From: Stigmatella erecta
GTDB lineage: Bacteria > Myxococcota > Myxococcia > Myxococcales > Myxococcaceae
Length of the DNA: 64,000 nt
Assembly: GCF_900111745.1 (NCBI RefSeq)
Contig: NZ_FOIJ01000004.1
Span: forward strand, 124,001-188,000
Reading direction: 5' to 3'
The translations under genes and the position numbers were made by a program. Below, piece by piece: positions 26,289 through 34,525 of the stretch (its first letter is position 1; every line of letters starts with the position of its first letter). The notes under the pieces were generated by a model. The model made no database searches. It was not told where the DNA came from and saw only the letters and a program-made list of their open reading frames with translations.

Positions 26289-27833
26289 ATGAAGCTTTCC
26301 CGACGCCACTTCCTTCGCGACGTCTCCCGGGGCCTGGGCTGCCTGGCCACCGCCGCTGCCCTTCCGCGCTGGCTGGGGGAGGCGGAAGCCGCCTCGATCA
26401 GCGGGTACGCGGGCTACCGCGCCGCCGTCTGTGTCTTCCTGCTGGGCGGCAATGACTCCAACAACCTGCTCATCCCCAAGCTGAGCACGCCCTATGCGCA
26501 GTACAAGGCGGCGCGGCCCAACATCGGCATCGCCAACGCCGACCTGCTGACCCTCAACCCCATTGGCCAGCCGGCGGCCTCCTACGGGTTGCACCCCTCG
26601 CTCGTGAAGCTCCAGGCGCTCTTCGAGCAGGAGAAGGCCGCCCTCGTGTGCAACGTGGGGCCGCTCGTGCTGCCCATGAAGAAGGCCGACTACGTCACCG
26701 GGGCCGTGGCGCGGCCGGACAACCTGTTCTCCCACGCGGACCAGCAGGACGCCTGGGCCAGCTCCATCGCCAACCCGTCCTCCATCTCGCTGCCGATGGC
26801 GCTCATCGGCAAGGTGACGGGCTGGGCGGGCCGGACCGCGGACAAGATCTCCGGGCTGAACACGGGAACGCAGTACCCCGGGGTGACGTCCTTCGGAGGC
26901 AAGGCGATCTTCTCGGCGGGGGCCTCCAAGCAGCCGCTGATCGTGTCGTCGAACGGCACGCTGGGCTTCCGGACGTCGAGCGACACGGGCTTCAACGCCC
27001 TGTACCAGGAGTCGCTCACCGAGGTGCTCAAGATCCACAACGACGTCACCCTGCAGGCCTCTTACGGCGGCACCTTCACCACAGCGCAGACCTTCGCTTC
27101 GGCGAGAACCGCCGCGCGCGAGGCGGCGTGGCTGCTGCTGCCCCAGGCGACGCGCGAGGCCATCGACGCCCTGTTCGTGCTGCCCGAGGGCGGCTCGGGC
27201 TGGGGGCTGCCGGGCCAGCTCTACCAGGTCGTCCGGGACTTGGTGGCGGGCGCGACGCCCGCGGCCAGCGGGGGCCTGGGCCTCAAGCGCCAGGTGTTCT
27301 CCGTGGGGCTGGGCGGCTTCGACACCCACACGGGGCAGGACACGGCTCAGAGTTCGCTGTTCAAGCAGCTCGACTTCGCCCTCGATGCGTTCCACCAGGC
27401 GCTCACGGTTCTGCGGGCCACCACGAACTTCGGCGCCACGCCTCCGCAGACCACGCTCTTCACGATCAGCGACTTCGGCCGCACCTTCGTGGAGAACTCG
27501 GACAAGGGCACGGACCACGGCTGGGGCAGCCACATGATCGTCCTGGGCGACCGCGTCGCGGGCAAGCGGCTCTACGGCGCCTTCCCCAACCTGGACCTGA
27601 CGAACGGCGGGGCGAACAACCTGGACACCACCGACTCGCGGGGCCGCTGGATTCCCTCGCTGACGGTGGACCAGTACGCCTACTCCGTCGCCGCGTGGCT
27701 GGGCCTGTCGACCACCGCGGAGCGGGACTACGTGTTCCCGAACCTCGCGGCCTATGTCTCCGCCGCGGCGGCCAACCAGTTCCCCGCCGACGCGCAGAAG
27801 ACGAAGATCGGCTTCCTGCTCGCGGACCCCTGA
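26289..27833 (+). CDS. DUF1501 protein with Tat signal
   Basis: A 514-residue protein starting KLSRRHFLRDVSRGLGCLAT, a twin-arginine signal, so it is exported folded. The family is distantly related to sulfatase/alkaline phosphatase-like enzymes. Typical segments are AAVCVFLLGGNDSNNLLIP, SVGLGGFDTHTGQDT, TLFTISDFGRTFVENSDKGTDHGWGSH and the C-terminal AAWLGLS. The clusters of Asp, His and Asn suggest a metal site, but the substrate is unknown. It follows the DUF1800 gene by five bases and forms an operon with it. Confidence 0.88.
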   Translation: MKLSRRHFLRDVSRGLGCLATAAALPRWLGEAEAASISGYAGYRAAVCVFLLGGNDSNNLLIPKLSTPYAQYKAARPNIGIANADLLTLNPIGQPAASYGLHPSLVKLQALFEQEKAALVCNVGPLVLPMKKADYVTGAVARPDNLFSHADQQDAWASSIANPSSISLPMALIGKVTGWAGRTADKISGLNTGTQYPGVTSFGGKAIFSAGASKQPLIVSSNGTLGFRTSSDTGFNALYQESLTEVLKIHNDVTLQASYGGTFTTAQTFASARTAAREAAWLLLPQATREAIDALFVLPEGGSGWGLPGQLYQVVRDLVAGATPAASGGLGLKRQVFSVGLGGFDTHTGQDTAQSSLFKQLDFALDAFHQALTVLRATTNFGATPPQTTLFTISDFGRTFVENSDKGTDHGWGSHMIVLGDRVAGKRLYGAFPNLDLTNGGANNLDTTDSRGRWIPSLTVDQYAYSVAAWLGLSTTAERDYVFPNLAAYVSAAAANQFPADAQKTKIGFLLADP

Positions 27834-27888
27834 GCTTCCGGCACGGACGGCGACGTCGTCGCGAATGCCCTCCGGCGGGGACCCGCCA

Positions 27889-27956
27889 CTCCCTGCGGCT
27901 CACGGCAGGGAGAGGAAACGCAGAGAAAGGCAGACCGGTGGGGATGGCCCCCACCG
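27889..27956. terminator. Two hairpins between convergent genes
   Basis: CTCCCTGC/GCAGGGAG (27889-27912) and CGGTGGGG/CCCCACCG (27936-27956) are both perfect eight-base-pair stems. They lie between the DUF1501 gene and the convergent peptide gene and can end transcripts from either side. T-runs are weak. Confidence 0.5.
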
Positions 27957-28000
27957 TGTCTGTCCCATGCTCCAACAGCGAGCGTGGCTCTCTGTCCTTG

Positions 28001-28156
28001 CTACGCGCCCGACTCTTCAGCCAGAGCGTACGTGGTGAACGGCCCCGAGGCGCTAACCGTGCTCGCGGCACTCTTTTTGCCCTCGATGCGGGCAAGATCC
28101 TGAATGAACAGCTGCTGGGTCCGCTGAGTCTTCTGCTCCTGATTCTCGCGCTTCAT
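28001..28156 (-). CDS. Graspetide precursor peptide, plesiocin-like (group 2 type)
   Basis: A 51-residue peptide with no signal sequence and a very strong ribosome site (AGGAGG, six bases before ATG 28156). The leader half is hydrophilic except for LFIQDLARIEGK (16-27), which matches the leader recognition motif (LFIEDL type) known for plesiocin precursors. The C-terminal half, ASTVSASGPFTTYALAEESG, contains TT (41-42), four residues, then EE (47-48), the TT-x4-EE core of group 2 graspetides. In that class an ATP-grasp ligase joins the Thr hydroxyls to the Glu side chains as esters, giving a nested hairpin-like double ring. There is one core rather than the several tandem cores of plesiocin. 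The ATP-grasp gene lies 188 bases upstream on the same strand. No protease or transporter gene is adjacent. The two motif matches are direct; the product structure is inferred. Confidence 0.85.
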   Translation of the reverse strand: MKRENQEQKTQRTQQLFIQDLARIEGKKSAASTVSASGPFTTYALAEESGA

Positions 28157-28180
28157 GACAACCTCCTGAAGGCAGAAATG

Positions 28181-28199
28181 CCGTGGGCCCATCCCACGG
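28181..28199. promoter_or_regulatory. Stem-loop in the leader of the graspetide precursor mRNA
   Basis: CCGTGGG/CCCACGG, seven base pairs with a five-base loop, about 13 bases upstream of the AGGAGG site of the precursor gene and inside the gap between ligase and precursor. It could protect the 5' end of a processed precursor message or weakly attenuate read-through. Confidence 0.35.
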
Positions 28200-28344
28200 G
28201 GATAAAGGACAGCACTCTTTTCCGCCGTGCGTCCCTTGAGGCAGAAGTTGGGTCCGCTCCGGGCCCCAGCCAAGGCAAAACCCGATATTTTTGGAAAGCG
28301 TTCGAAGGGCTCGCGGGGAGGCCGGGGCCCGAGTGCCTGCCTGC

Positions 28345-29301
28345 TCAGGGACGCGGAGCGCGGGCCGCCTGCACGAGGCCCCGGGCGAGGTGCCCGAGGA
28401 TGTCCGTGCCCGCGCGCGCATCGAAGCCCAGGAACATGGGCGACTCGTTGAGTTCGAGGATGCGCAGGGTGCCCTCGGCATCGCGCTTGAGGTCCATCCC
28501 CGTCCAGCGCAGCCCCAGCACCTGCGTGGCCCGGAGACACTGCGCCGCCACCTCGGGGGGCAGCGCGAAGGACTCGACGCGCTCCTCGTTCTGCCGGAAG
28601 TCGATGGCCTGGGAGAGGATGCGGATGCTGGCGATGACTTCCCCATCGAGCACGTAGACGCGCACGTCCTCGCCGGGCAGGAGGGCCTGGAAGGTCACGG
28701 GCGCGGCCCCCAGCGCGGCGAGCCGTTCCTCGGAGAGGTCCTCGGGGCCCAGCGCCCGCGTGGCCGCGCCGCCGCCCACGGGCTTGTAGGCCACGCGTCG
28801 GCCGGCGGCGAAGCGGCGCACCGCCTCGGCGTCATTCGTCCAGAGCGTCTCCGGCACGGGCAACCCCGCCTGGGCGAGCAGCGCGAGCTGAAGGGGTTTC
28901 TGGATGCGCCAGCTGGTGGACTCGGGGTTGTAGAAGGGCACGCCCAGCGCTTCCCAGCGGCCCAGCAGGCCCCGTAGCAGCGTGGCCTTCTCGCGGAAGG
29001 CCACCAGCGTGGTGCGCCAGTCCGCGTCCATGTCCGCGTCCGCGTCCACGCCAAAGGCGAGCGGGTGGGTGTAGACGCTGCGCAGGTAGACGGCCCCGGG
29101 GATTCCAAGCCGCTGCCCATTCACGGTGATGCCGTCGAGGCCCTCCGTCAGCGCCAGGCGCGTCTGCCCGGGGAAGGCGAGGGTGTCCACCACGAGGGTG
29201 TCCACCCCCAGCGCTTCGATGCTGCGGGCCAGGTGCGAGATGTGCTCGTCGTCGCGGGATCCAACGAGGAACACGGGGCGGGCGGGCGCGGGGGGCGTCA
29301 T
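28345..29301 (-). CDS. RimK-type ATP-grasp ligase, predicted graspetide macrocyclase
   Basis: A 318-residue protein. The N-terminal domain (1-110) opens PVFLVGSRDDEHISHLARSI. The ATP-grasp part follows with WRIQKPLQLALLAQAGLPVP, the nucleotide Lys and Gly loop VAYKPVGGGAATRAL, FQALLPGEDVRVYVLDGEV, and metal ligands in GMDLKRD and RILELNESPMFLGFD. This is the form of the MvdC/MvdD/PsnB ligases that make ester or amide cross-links in graspetides, and the candidate precursor is the next gene on the strand. ATG 29301 has AAGGAG upstream; a GTG at 29337 would add 12 residues. It follows a hypothetical gene by under 60 bases and may be co-transcribed. A RimK- or glutathione-synthase-like role on another substrate is the alternative. 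Confidence 0.87.
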   Translation of the reverse strand: MTPPAPARPVFLVGSRDDEHISHLARSIEALGVDTLVVDTLAFPGQTRLALTEGLDGITVNGQRLGIPGAVYLRSVYTHPLAFGVDADADMDADWRTTLVAFREKATLLRGLLGRWEALGVPFYNPESTSWRIQKPLQLALLAQAGLPVPETLWTNDAEAVRRFAAGRRVAYKPVGGGAATRALGPEDLSEERLAALGAAPVTFQALLPGEDVRVYVLDGEVIASIRILSQAIDFRQNEERVESFALPPEVAAQCLRATQVLGLRWTGMDLKRDAEGTLRILELNESPMFLGFDARAGTDILGHLARGLVQAARAPRP

Positions 29302-29358
29302 GGAGCGATGCTCCTTGATTCCCGCTGTGCGCGCCACCGCCCCTGCGCGTGCCGCGGA

Positions 29359-29898
29359 CTACCAGCCGCCTCCACCGCCCTGGGTGGGGGGAGTTCTCGG
29401 CGCGAACGCACCCTGAATGCCCTCGACGGCAGACATTCCAACGCCGCCAATGAGGTTGATCGTCGCTCCGAAGAGCTCCATGTCCGCCTGGAGGGGCCTG
29501 CCGTTGATGAGGCTTTGGAAGGCGTCCCGGGCGAAGGTCCTCGCCTCCCGGAAGTGGGCCTCGGACTGGGGCATGGTGCCCTGGCTGACTCCCCGCAGGT
29601 TCTCCATGACGCTCCGCTGGGAAGCAGGGGAGATGCCGTACCCTCCCGCCTGCAGCAGGCCGTTCACCGTGCCCACGAGACTTCCGTAGAGGCTGGGGTT
29701 GTTCTGCGCCTGAACCCCGATCTCCGTGCGCAGCCGGTCCGTCTGGGTGAAGTCGGACAGGTGGGGGTTGGCCGGCTCGGTGGTGGCGGCGGCGGGGACG
29801 ATATTCGGCGCGGACGCGGCAGGGGATCCTGGCTGCACGCCGGCGCTGGGGGGAGGACTGATGGGACGGCTTCCGGAGGCTCCGACCGGTGACGTCAT
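29359..29898 (-). CDS. Hypothetical protein upstream of the graspetide ligase
   Basis: Not recognised. A 179-residue protein without a signal peptide. The first 45 residues are disordered (Pro, Ala, Ser, Gly). The middle (about 45-130) is helical (TDRLRTEIGVQAQNNPSLYG, ASQRSVMENLRGVSQG, AHFREARTFARDAFQSLING). Next come a glycine-rich apolar stretch (ATINLIGGVGMSAVEGIQGA) and a Gly-rich tail ending QGGGGGW. A clear AGGAGAAGAACC site precedes ATG 29898. It is on the same strand as the ATP-grasp and precursor genes and may belong to their operon. It could be a secreted or structural protein, but nothing shows that. Confidence 0.7.
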   Translation of the reverse strand: MTSPVGASGSRPISPPPSAGVQPGSPAASAPNIVPAAATTEPANPHLSDFTQTDRLRTEIGVQAQNNPSLYGSLVGTVNGLLQAGGYGISPASQRSVMENLRGVSQGTMPQSEAHFREARTFARDAFQSLINGRPLQADMELFGATINLIGGVGMSAVEGIQGAFAPRTPPTQGGGGGW

Positions 29899-30041
29899 GG
29901 TTCTTCTCCTGGCGAAAAACAGCTAAGACGCGGATTTTAGCGCATCCAGAAAAACCGTCCATCCCGGGAAGTTTTCCCAAGGCATGAGAGAGATTTCCTG
30001 GCTGGGTGCTTGAGCCCCAACCGCTTGAGCGGAGGAGCGGC

Positions 30042-31178
30042 ATGACACATGCCTTGAGGCAATTGCTGGAAGAGGGCCGCATTCGCGAGGCGCGAGAGGC
30101 CGCCACGCATCAGCTCTCCCAGGATCCGGAGGACGAGGAGGCCCTGCTGGCGCTGGCCAAGGTGGCCCTGGTGGACGCCCGGCCGGAGCAGGCCGAGCAG
30201 CTGCTGTCGCGGGTGAAGTCCGAAGGCGCGCAGCGGGAAGTCACCCTGTTGCGCGGTGCCGTGGCCATTCAGCACCAGGACTTCGTCCGGGCGCGGGAGC
30301 ACTACGAGGTACTCATTCGCCAGCCCACGCCCCCGGCCGAAGCCTGGCATGGCCTGGGCGTCGCCCAGCTGGCCCTGGGCGCGGTGGCCGAGGCCCGCGA
30401 GGCGCACGAGCAGGCCGTGGCGCTCAGACCCCAGCAGTCTGGCTTTCGCTTCGAGTTGGGCATGGCGCTGGTCATGGAAGAGCGGCCCCGGGCCGCGGCG
30501 CGGGAGTTCGTCCAGTGCTTGCGGCTGGATGCCCGGGACGCCCGTGGCTACTGGGCCTTGGCCCAGCTGCTCGGGCAGCGGGGCAAGGTGCGGTCGGCCC
30601 GGCGCATGCTGGAGGCAGGGCTGACGCAGGCGCCTCAATCCCAGCTGCTGCGCGAGACGCTGGCGGCGAACCAGGAGCCCTCCGAGGACCGCGAAGAAGC
30701 GCCGGACGTGGCGCTGTTCCACGAGGCCTCGAGGCTCGTGGAGCGCAAACGCGGCCGGGAGGCCCTGACGCTGCTGCGGGAGGGCTGGGCGCAGGGGACG
30801 CGCTCCCTGCCGCTCAAGCTCCTGGAGGCCGAGGCGTGCAAGGTGCTCCAGCCCCCGGACATGCCCGGCATCATCCACGCTTACGAGGAGGCGATTGCCT
30901 TCGCGCCGGAGCACTGGGAGCCCTACACGCGCCTGGGGGTGTGCTTGTTGAAGGAGGGGCACCGGCACGAGCCCCGCGCCATCGAACTGCTGGAGACGGC
31001 GCGGCGGCTCGAACCTGGAATGCCCGAGACCTCGCTCAACCTGGTCCTGGCGTACGTCAAGGCCCAGCGCATCGCCGAAGCCCGCGCCCTGGCGCAACAG
31101 GTGGTGGAGGGCCTGACGCCGGAGCACCCGCTCTTCGCGCAGGCCACCCGTCTTCTGGAAGCCCTGCGCAAAGTGTGA
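30042..31178 (+). CDS. Tetratricopeptide-repeat protein
   Basis: A 378-residue cytoplasmic protein built of TPR-like helix pairs: EEGRIREAREAATHQLSQDP, VDARPEQAEQLLSRVKSEGA, EAWHGLGVAQLALGAVAEAR, GYWALAQLLGQRGKVRSARR, and a C-terminal set with HWEPYTRLGVCLLKEGHRHE. There is no signal peptide and no enzymatic domain, so it is a protein-protein interaction scaffold of unknown partner. ATG 30042 follows GGAGGAG. It is divergent from the hypothetical gene at 29898, with 143 bases between the starts. Confidence 0.85.
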   Translation: MTHALRQLLEEGRIREAREAATHQLSQDPEDEEALLALAKVALVDARPEQAEQLLSRVKSEGAQREVTLLRGAVAIQHQDFVRAREHYEVLIRQPTPPAEAWHGLGVAQLALGAVAEAREAHEQAVALRPQQSGFRFELGMALVMEERPRAAAREFVQCLRLDARDARGYWALAQLLGQRGKVRSARRMLEAGLTQAPQSQLLRETLAANQEPSEDREEAPDVALFHEASRLVERKRGREALTLLREGWAQGTRSLPLKLLEAEACKVLQPPDMPGIIHAYEEAIAFAPEHWEPYTRLGVCLLKEGHRHEPRAIELLETARRLEPGMPETSLNLVLAYVKAQRIAEARALAQQVVEGLTPEHPLFAQATRLLEALRKV

Positions 31179-32052: not shown

Positions 32053-33144
32053 ATGGGACACATATCCTGCCGGATTTTGTTGATCGGTGTTTTGGTGTTG
32101 ACGTCAGCATGTGCATCAAGCCAGGGAAAGCCTGGTCTGAAGGTAGGCAGTACAAGCCTCGATGGCGGTGCAAGCCTCGATGGCGGTGCAAGCACTGATG
32201 GCGGTGCAAGCACTGATGGCGGTGCAAGCACTGATGGCGGTGCAAGCACTGATGGCGGTGCAGGAAACAAGTATAAGAAAATTTCGTGCCCAAATTACGC
32301 GTATGAGGCCGTCGTGTCGTGGAACCAGGGAAAGCCTGTCTACGCGTGTGTTGCCGACAATCGGAAGCACATTCAGCCTCAACAAATGAACACGCAGGAT
32401 GAAGTCTTCATGGGATTGCTGGCACGGTGTGCGGCAGCAGAATCGGAAATGCAGAGTAGAGCCAAGTGCTCGCAGAGAGTGAGGTGGGTTACTTTTATTG
32501 CTGGAACCGCCTCCACGCTTACTGCTGCTGCTTTGACAGGAATTAATAGTTCCAACAGTCCTGACTTCGTCAAGGTACGTAACACCGCAATCGGGCTAGG
32601 TGTGGGGGGGAGTCTTTTCTCGGCTATTTCGGGAGTTGGCTTGTTCGGCGAGCGCGCAAATGCTTCTGCTTCTTCCTTGGGAAGAGTTCGAGCAGCAATG
32701 GATGGGGCAAGGGCGGAATGGCCTGTTGCGCGTCTTGATAGGGCTGAAGCTCAGCGAGTACTGAGGTCCATGGCGTCTGCATGTTCTGAAACGCTCTCGC
32801 CGGAAATCATCCGGATCGCACAGCCGAGTGAGGGGGCGGAGAAGCTGAATTTCCTTAAGGTTGCTCAGAACGCTGCGTCTGATGCAGAGCAGGATATCGA
32901 TGTCGCGGTCAAAAAAGCCGCGCCTGGACCTGGAGCGTTTGATCTGACGGAGTTGGATCAATTGGAAAAATTGCTCGGTGGCGTCTTGACGGGTGATTGG
33001 GATGCGAGACTCAAGATTGCTGCTAAGGATGTGATTGATAAAGTGGGGGTACTTAAGAGCAGTCAGACTGCTGGTAACGCGGGTGAACTCCAGAAATCCC
33101 TGCGGCACTTCCAGAAGGTTGCTGGAAGTCTTTTGTTGTGGTGA
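32053..33144 (+). CDS. Lipoprotein with six-residue DGGA repeats, lower GC than neighbours
   Basis: A 363-residue protein with a lipoprotein signal (ILLIGVLVLTSAC, cleavage before Cys20). It is followed by a linker made of six copies of S(L/T)DGGA, then a Cys-containing domain (KKISCPNYAYEAVVSWNQGK), two glycine-rich apolar segments that may contact membrane (WVTFIAGTASTLTAAALTGI and NTAIGLGVGGSLFSAISGVG) and a helical C terminus. Not recognised. The gene is visibly less GC-rich than the rest of the window, with many AT-ending codons, suggesting transfer or relaxed selection. A CGAGG ribosome site precedes ATG 32053. The kinase gene follows 13 bases after the stop, so lipoprotein and receptor-like kinase form an operon and may work together at the envelope. 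Confidence 0.75.
   Translation: MGHISCRILLIGVLVLTSACASSQGKPGLKVGSTSLDGGASLDGGASTDGGASTDGGASTDGGASTDGGAGNKYKKISCPNYAYEAVVSWNQGKPVYACVADNRKHIQPQQMNTQDEVFMGLLARCAAAESEMQSRAKCSQRVRWVTFIAGTASTLTAAALTGINSSNSPDFVKVRNTAIGLGVGGSLFSAISGVGLFGERANASASSLGRVRAAMDGARAEWPVARLDRAEAQRVLRSMASACSETLSPEIIRIAQPSEGAEKLNFLKVAQNAASDAEQDIDVAVKKAAPGPGAFDLTELDQLEKLLGGVLTGDWDARLKIAAKDVIDKVGVLKSSQTAGNAGELQKSLRHFQKVAGSLLLW
32152..32259. repeat. Six tandem 18-bp repeats encoding S(L/T)DGGA
   Basis: Copies 1-2 read (A/G)CAAGCCTCGATGGCGGT and copies 3-6 read GCAAGCACTGATGGCGGT, perfect within each type. Being a multiple of three, copy-number change would lengthen or shorten the linker behind the lipid anchor without breaking the frame. 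Confidence 0.95.
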
Positions 33145-33157
33145 GGGACTCTCTTGA

Positions 33158-34525
33158 ATGGCGGTAAACTCCCACGGCGTGAGTCTGGTCTTGGCTGTTC
33201 CTGGAACCGAGGTGGGCACTTGGCGCGTGCTGGAGCAGCGCGGGCAGGGCTCCTATGGCACCGTTTACCGGGCTGAGAAGGTGGGGCAGCCCGAGGCAGG
33301 GTCTTTCGCGTTGAAGCTGGCGCTTCACCTGAACGATCCCCGTTTCGAACGCGAGGCGGAACTGCTCTCCCGGCTCCAGCACCCGCATGTTCCCAGGTTG
33401 CTGGAGCAGGGCACCTGGGAGGTGCCGGAGGGTGGAGGCTTTCCCTTCCTCGTCATGGAGTGGATGGAGGGCGTGCCCTTGTATCGGTGGGCGGCTCAGC
33501 AGCCCTTCACCTCGCGTCAGGCTTCGAGGCTCCTGGCGCAGGTGGCCTCGGCCCTGGCGGCGACGCACGAGGCTGAAGGGGTCCACCGCGACGTGCGGGG
33601 AGACAATGTGCTCGTGCGGACGGGGACGCTCCAAGCCGTGCTGCTGGACTTCGGCTCGGCGTATTACCGGCGGGCCCGGGTGCTCACGCACCAGTTTCCG
33701 CCTCCCGGAACGCCCGAGTACCAGAGCCCTGAGTGTCAGCGCTTCCAGTGGGAGTACCGGCACCAGCCGGGCGCCCGTTATGAGGCGCAGCCCTCAGATG
33801 ACCTGTATGCCCTGGGTGTGATGGCCTATCGGCTCGTCACCGGCGGGTATCCGCCAGCGGCCTTGGAGCTGAAGGTGACCGGAGAGGGATTCGATTTCTT
33901 TTCGCCTCCCTGGGTCCCCCCCGAGAGCCGGGTGTCCGTATCGCCAGCGCTGGCGGAGCTCATCCGGCAGTTGCTTCACGAAGAGCCTGCCGCGCGCGGA
34001 ACCACCGGCGAGGTGGCCGAAGCGCTGGACCGTCTGGCGAGAACGGCCGGGCCTCTGGAGGATCGCCTCATCCTCCCAGTGGCGGCGCCTGAGGACCTCT
34101 CCCAGGTTCGCCCGCCCGAGTCGGTGGGGACGGAGGCACCCTGGCTGGCCATGGTGGCGCTGGTGTACCTGGTGATAGGGGCTTGGTGGGTGCAACCCAG
34201 GACCGGGTTTCCCGCTGGGAGCCTTCAAGAGGGGCCGCCCAGCGCGGGGACGGCCGGGCTTGGGGAAGAGGTGCTCGCCAGCCCCGCCCTGATGGGTCCT
34301 CATGAGTCCGGCGTCAAAGGACTGGGGCTCGACATGCCCAAGAAGCCCTTCCCGGGCCAGCAGCGCCCTCCCTGCGAAAAGCCCTTGGTGGAAATCAATG
34401 CGGGGTGCTGGGGCCGCCTGGGCGATGCCCTGCCGCCCTGTGGCGCCACCTCCTATGAGTGGAAGAAGGGATGTTACTGGCCCCATATTGATCCCCGGCG
34501 GCCTTCGACCTCAAATCCGCCATGA
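33158..34525 (+). CDS. Transmembrane Ser/Thr protein kinase with Cys-rich C-terminal tail
   Basis: A 455-residue protein. The kinase domain (about 20-290) has the Gly loop GQGSYGTVYRA, Lys in FALKLAL, catalytic loop HRDVRGDNVLV, DFGSAYY and the PEYQSPE segment with an insertion before SDDLYALGVMAYRLVTG. A membrane helix follows (about 328-347, PWLAMVALVYLVIGAWWV). The periplasmic tail ends in four Cys (RPPCEKPLVEINAGCWGRL, ALPPCGATSYEWKKGCYWP), a tail type seen in many myxobacterial kinases. The catalytic residues are intact. It is co-transcribed with the upstream lipoprotein gene; the stop overlaps an in-frame ATG of the GST frame. Confidence 0.88.
   Translation: MAVNSHGVSLVLAVPGTEVGTWRVLEQRGQGSYGTVYRAEKVGQPEAGSFALKLALHLNDPRFEREAELLSRLQHPHVPRLLEQGTWEVPEGGGFPFLVMEWMEGVPLYRWAAQQPFTSRQASRLLAQVASALAATHEAEGVHRDVRGDNVLVRTGTLQAVLLDFGSAYYRRARVLTHQFPPPGTPEYQSPECQRFQWEYRHQPGARYEAQPSDDLYALGVMAYRLVTGGYPPAALELKVTGEGFDFFSPPWVPPESRVSVSPALAELIRQLLHEEPAARGTTGEVAEALDRLARTAGPLEDRLILPVAAPEDLSQVRPPESVGTEAPWLAMVALVYLVIGAWWVQPRTGFPAGSLQEGPPSAGTAGLGEEVLASPALMGPHESGVKGLGLDMPKKPFPGQQRPPCEKPLVEINAGCWGRLGDALPPCGATSYEWKKGCYWPHIDPRRPSTSNPP

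Follow-up and report, generated by a model that had tools for sequence, protein, structure and literature searches.

Does a short open reading frame (ORF) beside an ATP-grasp gene of Stigmatella erecta, a predatory myxobacterium of the soil, encode the substrate of that enzyme, and what product would the pair make? We analyzed this in a window of 64,000 nucleotides (the whole stretch of DNA under study), in which both genes lie on the minus strand: an ATP-grasp protein of 318 amino acids (28345..29301) is followed by a 51-residue ORF (28001..28156). The original prediction took the pair for a group 2 (plesiocin-like) graspetide locus. We conclude that it is very probably a plesiocin-type cassette reduced to ligase and precursor, because the enzyme belongs to the PsnB-type family, the precursor is conserved and the required residues within it are conserved as well. 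Group 2 graspetides have been reported before; new is this member, with a single core common to its whole branch and a missing exporter common to part of it.

The Ligase Is a Close Relative of PsnB

We compared the window ligase with proteins of solved structure using phmmer. The best match by far is PsnB (7drm and three further entries), which aligns to ligase residues 10-311 with an E value of 3.8e-93 and 155 of 302 aligned residues identical (51%). It is followed by the microviridin-type ligase 5ig9 (E 6e-11), and glutamate ligases are weaker still. Judged by its 51% identity to the crystallized PsnB, the fold of the window ligase is fixed. Homologues of the ligase occupy 27 loci at 64-100% identity among the 145 genomes of the order that we searched, with the next full-length match at 38%. 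PsnB as the query retrieves the identical 27 loci at 51-54% identity, the remainder lying at 39% or less. In our tree, PsnB is the sister of a 28-row clade that holds the window ligase (support 88/91), and RimK-like ligases, glutamate ligases and 5ig9 fall outside the group formed by PsnB and this clade; long branches leave the outer joins unsure, which does not affect the grouping with PsnB against RimK. Across the 28 rows and PsnB, 83 positions are invariant, including Arg-214, Asp-270, Glu-283, and Asn-285, which we take from general knowledge of ATP-grasp enzymes to be ATP/Mg-site residues.

The enzyme might instead attach glutamate to a protein as a RimK-type ligase, with the small ORF present by chance. 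The Pfam RimK model indeed scores above its cut-off, and there is weak similarity to RimK and to glutamate ligases. PsnB, however, scores 316 bits against the window ligase, compared with 41 or less for glutamate ligases and RimK-like chains, and the peptide recurs in related loci of several genome contexts (26 of 28, see below). The tree, in joining the ligase to PsnB, rejects a RimK-type identity, and we regard this explanation as highly improbable. Database search and tree thus both bear out the family assignment that had been proposed. TIGR00768 reaches 56.8 bits, far under its cut-off of 143.4. The best NCBIfam models are ATP-grasp peptide maturases, every one far below its cut-off, and the branch is therefore not covered by a curated NCBIfam model.

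The Precursor Carries a Leader Element and a Single Core

Read from 28156 to 28001, the 51-residue ORF translates to MKRENQEQKTQRTQQLFIQDLARIEGKKSAASTVSASGPFTTYALAEESGA. A ribosome binding site, AGGAGG, is located five bases 5' of the ATG (28162..28167, minus strand), and its GGAGG is kept in genomes G078, G077, and G079. Residues 16-21 form the leader recognition element LFIQDL (28094..28111, minus strand), the counterpart of LFIEDL in the PsnA2(14-38) fragment co-crystallized with PsnB (7drm). The core TTYALAEE spans residues 41-48 (28013..28036, minus strand). Gene, ribosome site and both motifs are found exactly where they had been predicted. The plesiocin system (PsnA2/PsnB) shares with the window the PsnB-type ligase and a leader of the form LFI[EQ]DL, and its core TTLAIGEE is likewise TT-x4-EE with a like loop pattern, the TT and EE being invariant there and in the relatives. 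Plesiocin has four tandem core units, whereas the window precursor contains TTx4EE once, and its core is separated from the leader element by a longer spacer.

A chance occurrence of both motifs had been judged unlikely, and our counts agree with this. In a six-frame scan of the window, LF[IV]xD[LM] and TTx4EE each occur once, both within the precursor ORF. In 300 randomized copies of the window (order-2 Markov), the two motifs never occurred jointly; TTx4EE had 0.41 matches per copy and LF[IV]xD[LM] had 0.013. When the 51-residue peptide was compared with solved chains, the only match was the PsnA2 fragment bound to PsnB, a weak one (E 1.2).

We examined conservation of the precursor in 28 related loci, comprising the 27 from the order-wide search and that of Sorangium cellulosum So ce26. 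In 26 of them the ligase has a single-core precursor nearby; none turned up in G108 or G097 (in G097, 1.5 kb was read on each side). The only invariant residues in an alignment of 15 precursors, the PsnA2 fragment included, are Leu-16, Phe-17, Thr-41, Thr-42, Glu-47, and Glu-48; LF, TT, and EE are thus kept without exception, and together with the grouping of the ligase this supports the group 2 reading. The first residue of the core loop is always Tyr, Phe, Leu, or Met in the aligned precursors and the last is mostly Gly, as in the plesiocin core. The single core and the position of the precursor downstream of its ligase had been thought to set this locus apart. Both turn out to be normal for the branch, whose precursors as a rule have just one core and are often encoded downstream of the ligase.

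Within the genus of the window, the precursor ORF is intact end to end in all four genomes that have the locus (window and three others). Compared with G077, the window shows 85% DNA identity within the ORF, against 76% over the 250 bases that precede it and 34% over the stretch that follows. Precursor dN/dS values in the genus range from 0.14 to 0.83; they are moderate, noisy on 51 codons, and not by themselves strong proof of selection.

The Product Is Predicted to Be a Single Bicycle

We propose that the ligase would bind LFIQDL of the 51-residue peptide and, using ATP, would activate the side chains of Glu-47 and Glu-48 and join them to Thr-42 and Thr-41, respectively. PsnB forms two lactones per PsnA2 repeat in Escherichia coli (PMC9484694), and from this analogy two nested Thr-Glu esters are expected in TTYALAEE. 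The product would be one hairpin-like bicycle with the loop YALA near the C terminus, formed with the loss of 36.02 Da. The computed MH+ of the unmodified, untagged full-length precursor is 5600.84, and the unmodified tryptic fragment SAASTVSASGPFTTYALAEESGA is calculated at 2175.01; the predicted values after modification are 5564.82 and 2138.99, respectively. A counter-case is provided by Gra-5 of Glaciecola sp. KUL10, a group 2 member that lost only one water in E. coli (PMC9576775). Like the window precursor it is described as having fewer donor and acceptor residues than plesiocin, and its host belongs to another phylum of Gram-negatives.

Plesiocin inhibits serine proteases, and its inhibition becomes stronger with more repeats (PMC13097080). 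By analogy, it seems fairly likely that the window bicycle would act as a serine-protease inhibitor as well, and the hydrophobic first loop residue (Tyr here, Phe, Leu, or Met in relatives) would perhaps fill the specificity pocket of the target. As the strength of plesiocin grows with repeat number, we predict that the single-core product inhibits less strongly than four-repeat plesiocin or is tuned to a particular target. A natural minimal plesiocin system, with one ligase, one 51-residue substrate and one bicycle, is well suited for testing ring number against inhibitor strength.

The microviridin system MdnB-MdnC resembles the window locus in having an ATP-grasp peptide ligase with a similar N-terminal domain and ester crosslinks, but the similarity is distant (see 5ig9 above). 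Neither the microviridin leader PFFARFL nor the core TxKxPSD was found in the window precursor, and there is no second ligase at the window locus to make up the microviridin pair of ester and amide (lactam) enzymes. "Microviridin" type clusters have been described as conserved in Archangium, Cystobacter, and Sorangium, with no precursor or chemistry given for them (PMC12766979). The class covers ligases of the present kind, and these clusters may thus include relatives of the window locus.

The Exporter of Related Loci Is Missing

Thirteen of the 23 loci that we inspected contain a C39 exporter beyond the ligase-precursor pair, on the opposite strand and convergent with it. The protein has about 740 amino acids and consists of Peptidase_C39, ABC membrane, and ABC ATPase domains. 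Among the same 23 loci, it is absent from the window locus, from those of three congeners, and from G076, G047, and the small-genome Myxococcus group. From this distribution on the tree we infer that the exporter was lost on at least two branches. G047 has an orthologous exporter (64% identity) elsewhere in its genome (C1:328699). The window genome contains no orthologue, and its only C39-peptidase transporter, located on another contig (contig 18), is 35% identical to the exporter of the relatives. At the window locus, no other transporter lies directly beside the pair and no leader protease is linked to it; the leader would be cut off by an unlinked protease. Group 2 loci often include an NHLM-type transporter (PMC13097080), linked NHLM or C39 transporters being frequent but not defining, and C39 peptidases typically lie outside graspetide loci at large (PMC8939145). 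The missing protease and exporter, listed in the original prediction as a distinguishing feature, are thus not unusual for graspetides generally, but they do distinguish the window lineage from its exporter-bearing relatives.

It is conceivable, if doubtful, that the graspetide is not secreted but kept in the cell with its leader attached, where it would regulate proteases of the producer itself. The locus has neither the C39 exporter nor another transporter beside the pair, and the genome is without an orthologue. In addition, So ce26 and the exporter-bearing relatives of genus g3 have GG after the leader, where the window has GK and G076 has GD. On the other hand, exporter-bearing Myxococcus-like precursors mostly do without GG too, so that its link to the exporter is suggestive only. 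The transporter on contig 18 could act in trans, and C39 peptidases are often unlinked to graspetide loci (PMC8939145). A specific form of this idea, which we consider rather unlikely, is that the branch twice lost the exporter (in the window genus with G076, and in the small-genome Myxococcus group), kept ligase and precursor, and now would use the bicycle as an intracellular, leader-attached inhibitor of the producer's own proteases. Which molecules graspetides target in nature is unknown (PMC9826346), a question that a conserved, exporterless myxobacterial version makes testable.

The absent exporter, together with a precursor dN/dS of up to 0.83 in one genome pair, could also mean that the pair is a decaying remnant that is no longer functional. 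Yet neither ORF is disrupted in the four genomes of the genus or in G076, the motif residues are all kept, the ribosome binding site and a downstream hairpin are largely kept, and the ligase is 86-97% identical across the genus. Decay is thus very unlikely, and the reduced plesiocin-type cassette remains our preferred reading.

Gene Neighborhood and Regulatory Elements

Outside the genus of the window, the neighborhood has only ligase and precursor in common with related loci, except for a generic kinase match in locus L034. A 179-residue protein of unknown family is encoded 57 bases upstream of the ligase (29359..29898, minus strand) and is perhaps co-transcribed with it. It adjoins the ligase only in this one genus, and its homologues in many myxobacteria are unlinked and lie elsewhere in the genomes; it is probably not part of the cassette. 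A sigma-70-like promoter 5' of this gene (29934..29961, minus strand) is the only promoter-like site in 27800-30100, where 0.1 would be expected. Between ligase and precursor, an A+T-rich element (28270..28309, minus strand) differs little among four genomes, in contrast to its variable flanks, and it is a possible second, separate promoter for the precursor. The strong hairpin 3' of the precursor (27931..27964, minus strand; RNA fold -35 kcal/mol, z -3.6) is largely conserved in the genus and is the probable transcript end. A palindrome, CCGTGGG-ATGGG-CCCACGG (28184-28202), is located about 17 bases 5' of the precursor ribosome binding site and has a core that does not vary among four genomes. 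A riboregulator at the hairpin before the ribosome binding site was considered and dropped: the sequence is kept, but its fold is not stronger than that of shuffles (z 0.05).

The gap from the precursor to the next gene is a variable spot. It measures 0.17 kb in the window, but in two congeners (L036 9300-11760, L037 9300-13340) it extends over 2.5-4 kb and contains unrelated ORFs. We considered whether an exporter lies between precursor and next gene in G077 and G079, but none of the ORFs in that DNA is related to the exporter. Farther along the window, an 18-base tandem repeat (32146-32262, 5.7 copies, DGGAST units) lies inside an ORF (32053-33144) that is followed by a protein kinase gene (33158-34525).

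Four-cysteine Relatives

Six of the related loci, five of genus g3 and that of So ce26, encode precursors in which four cysteines surround this core; an example is CPDITTYACGEEPPGCLAC. A C39-like/VKOR/thioredoxin fusion is located just upstream of the ligase in five of these six and in none of 17 other loci (Fisher p about 2e-4 for 22 loci, with kinship ignored). The core TTxACxEE and the fusion occur together in L038, L041, L042, L043, and L034 (G043, G045 twice, G048, and So ce26). The sixth locus, L039 of G047, has a four-cysteine precursor and ligase without a linked exporter or the fusion. VKOR and DsbA-like thioredoxins make disulfides, and the four-cysteine relatives are therefore predicted to be graspetides carrying both ester and disulfide bonds. 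Our literature search, with most subscription journals outside its scope, found no paper on disulfide-bonded graspetides with a VKOR fusion. In L043 (12317-14323) and L042 (12326-13300), one or two additional ATP-grasp proteins are encoded within 6 kb of the graspetide ligase; they share 29-32% identity with the window ligase and possibly represent a second graspetide system.
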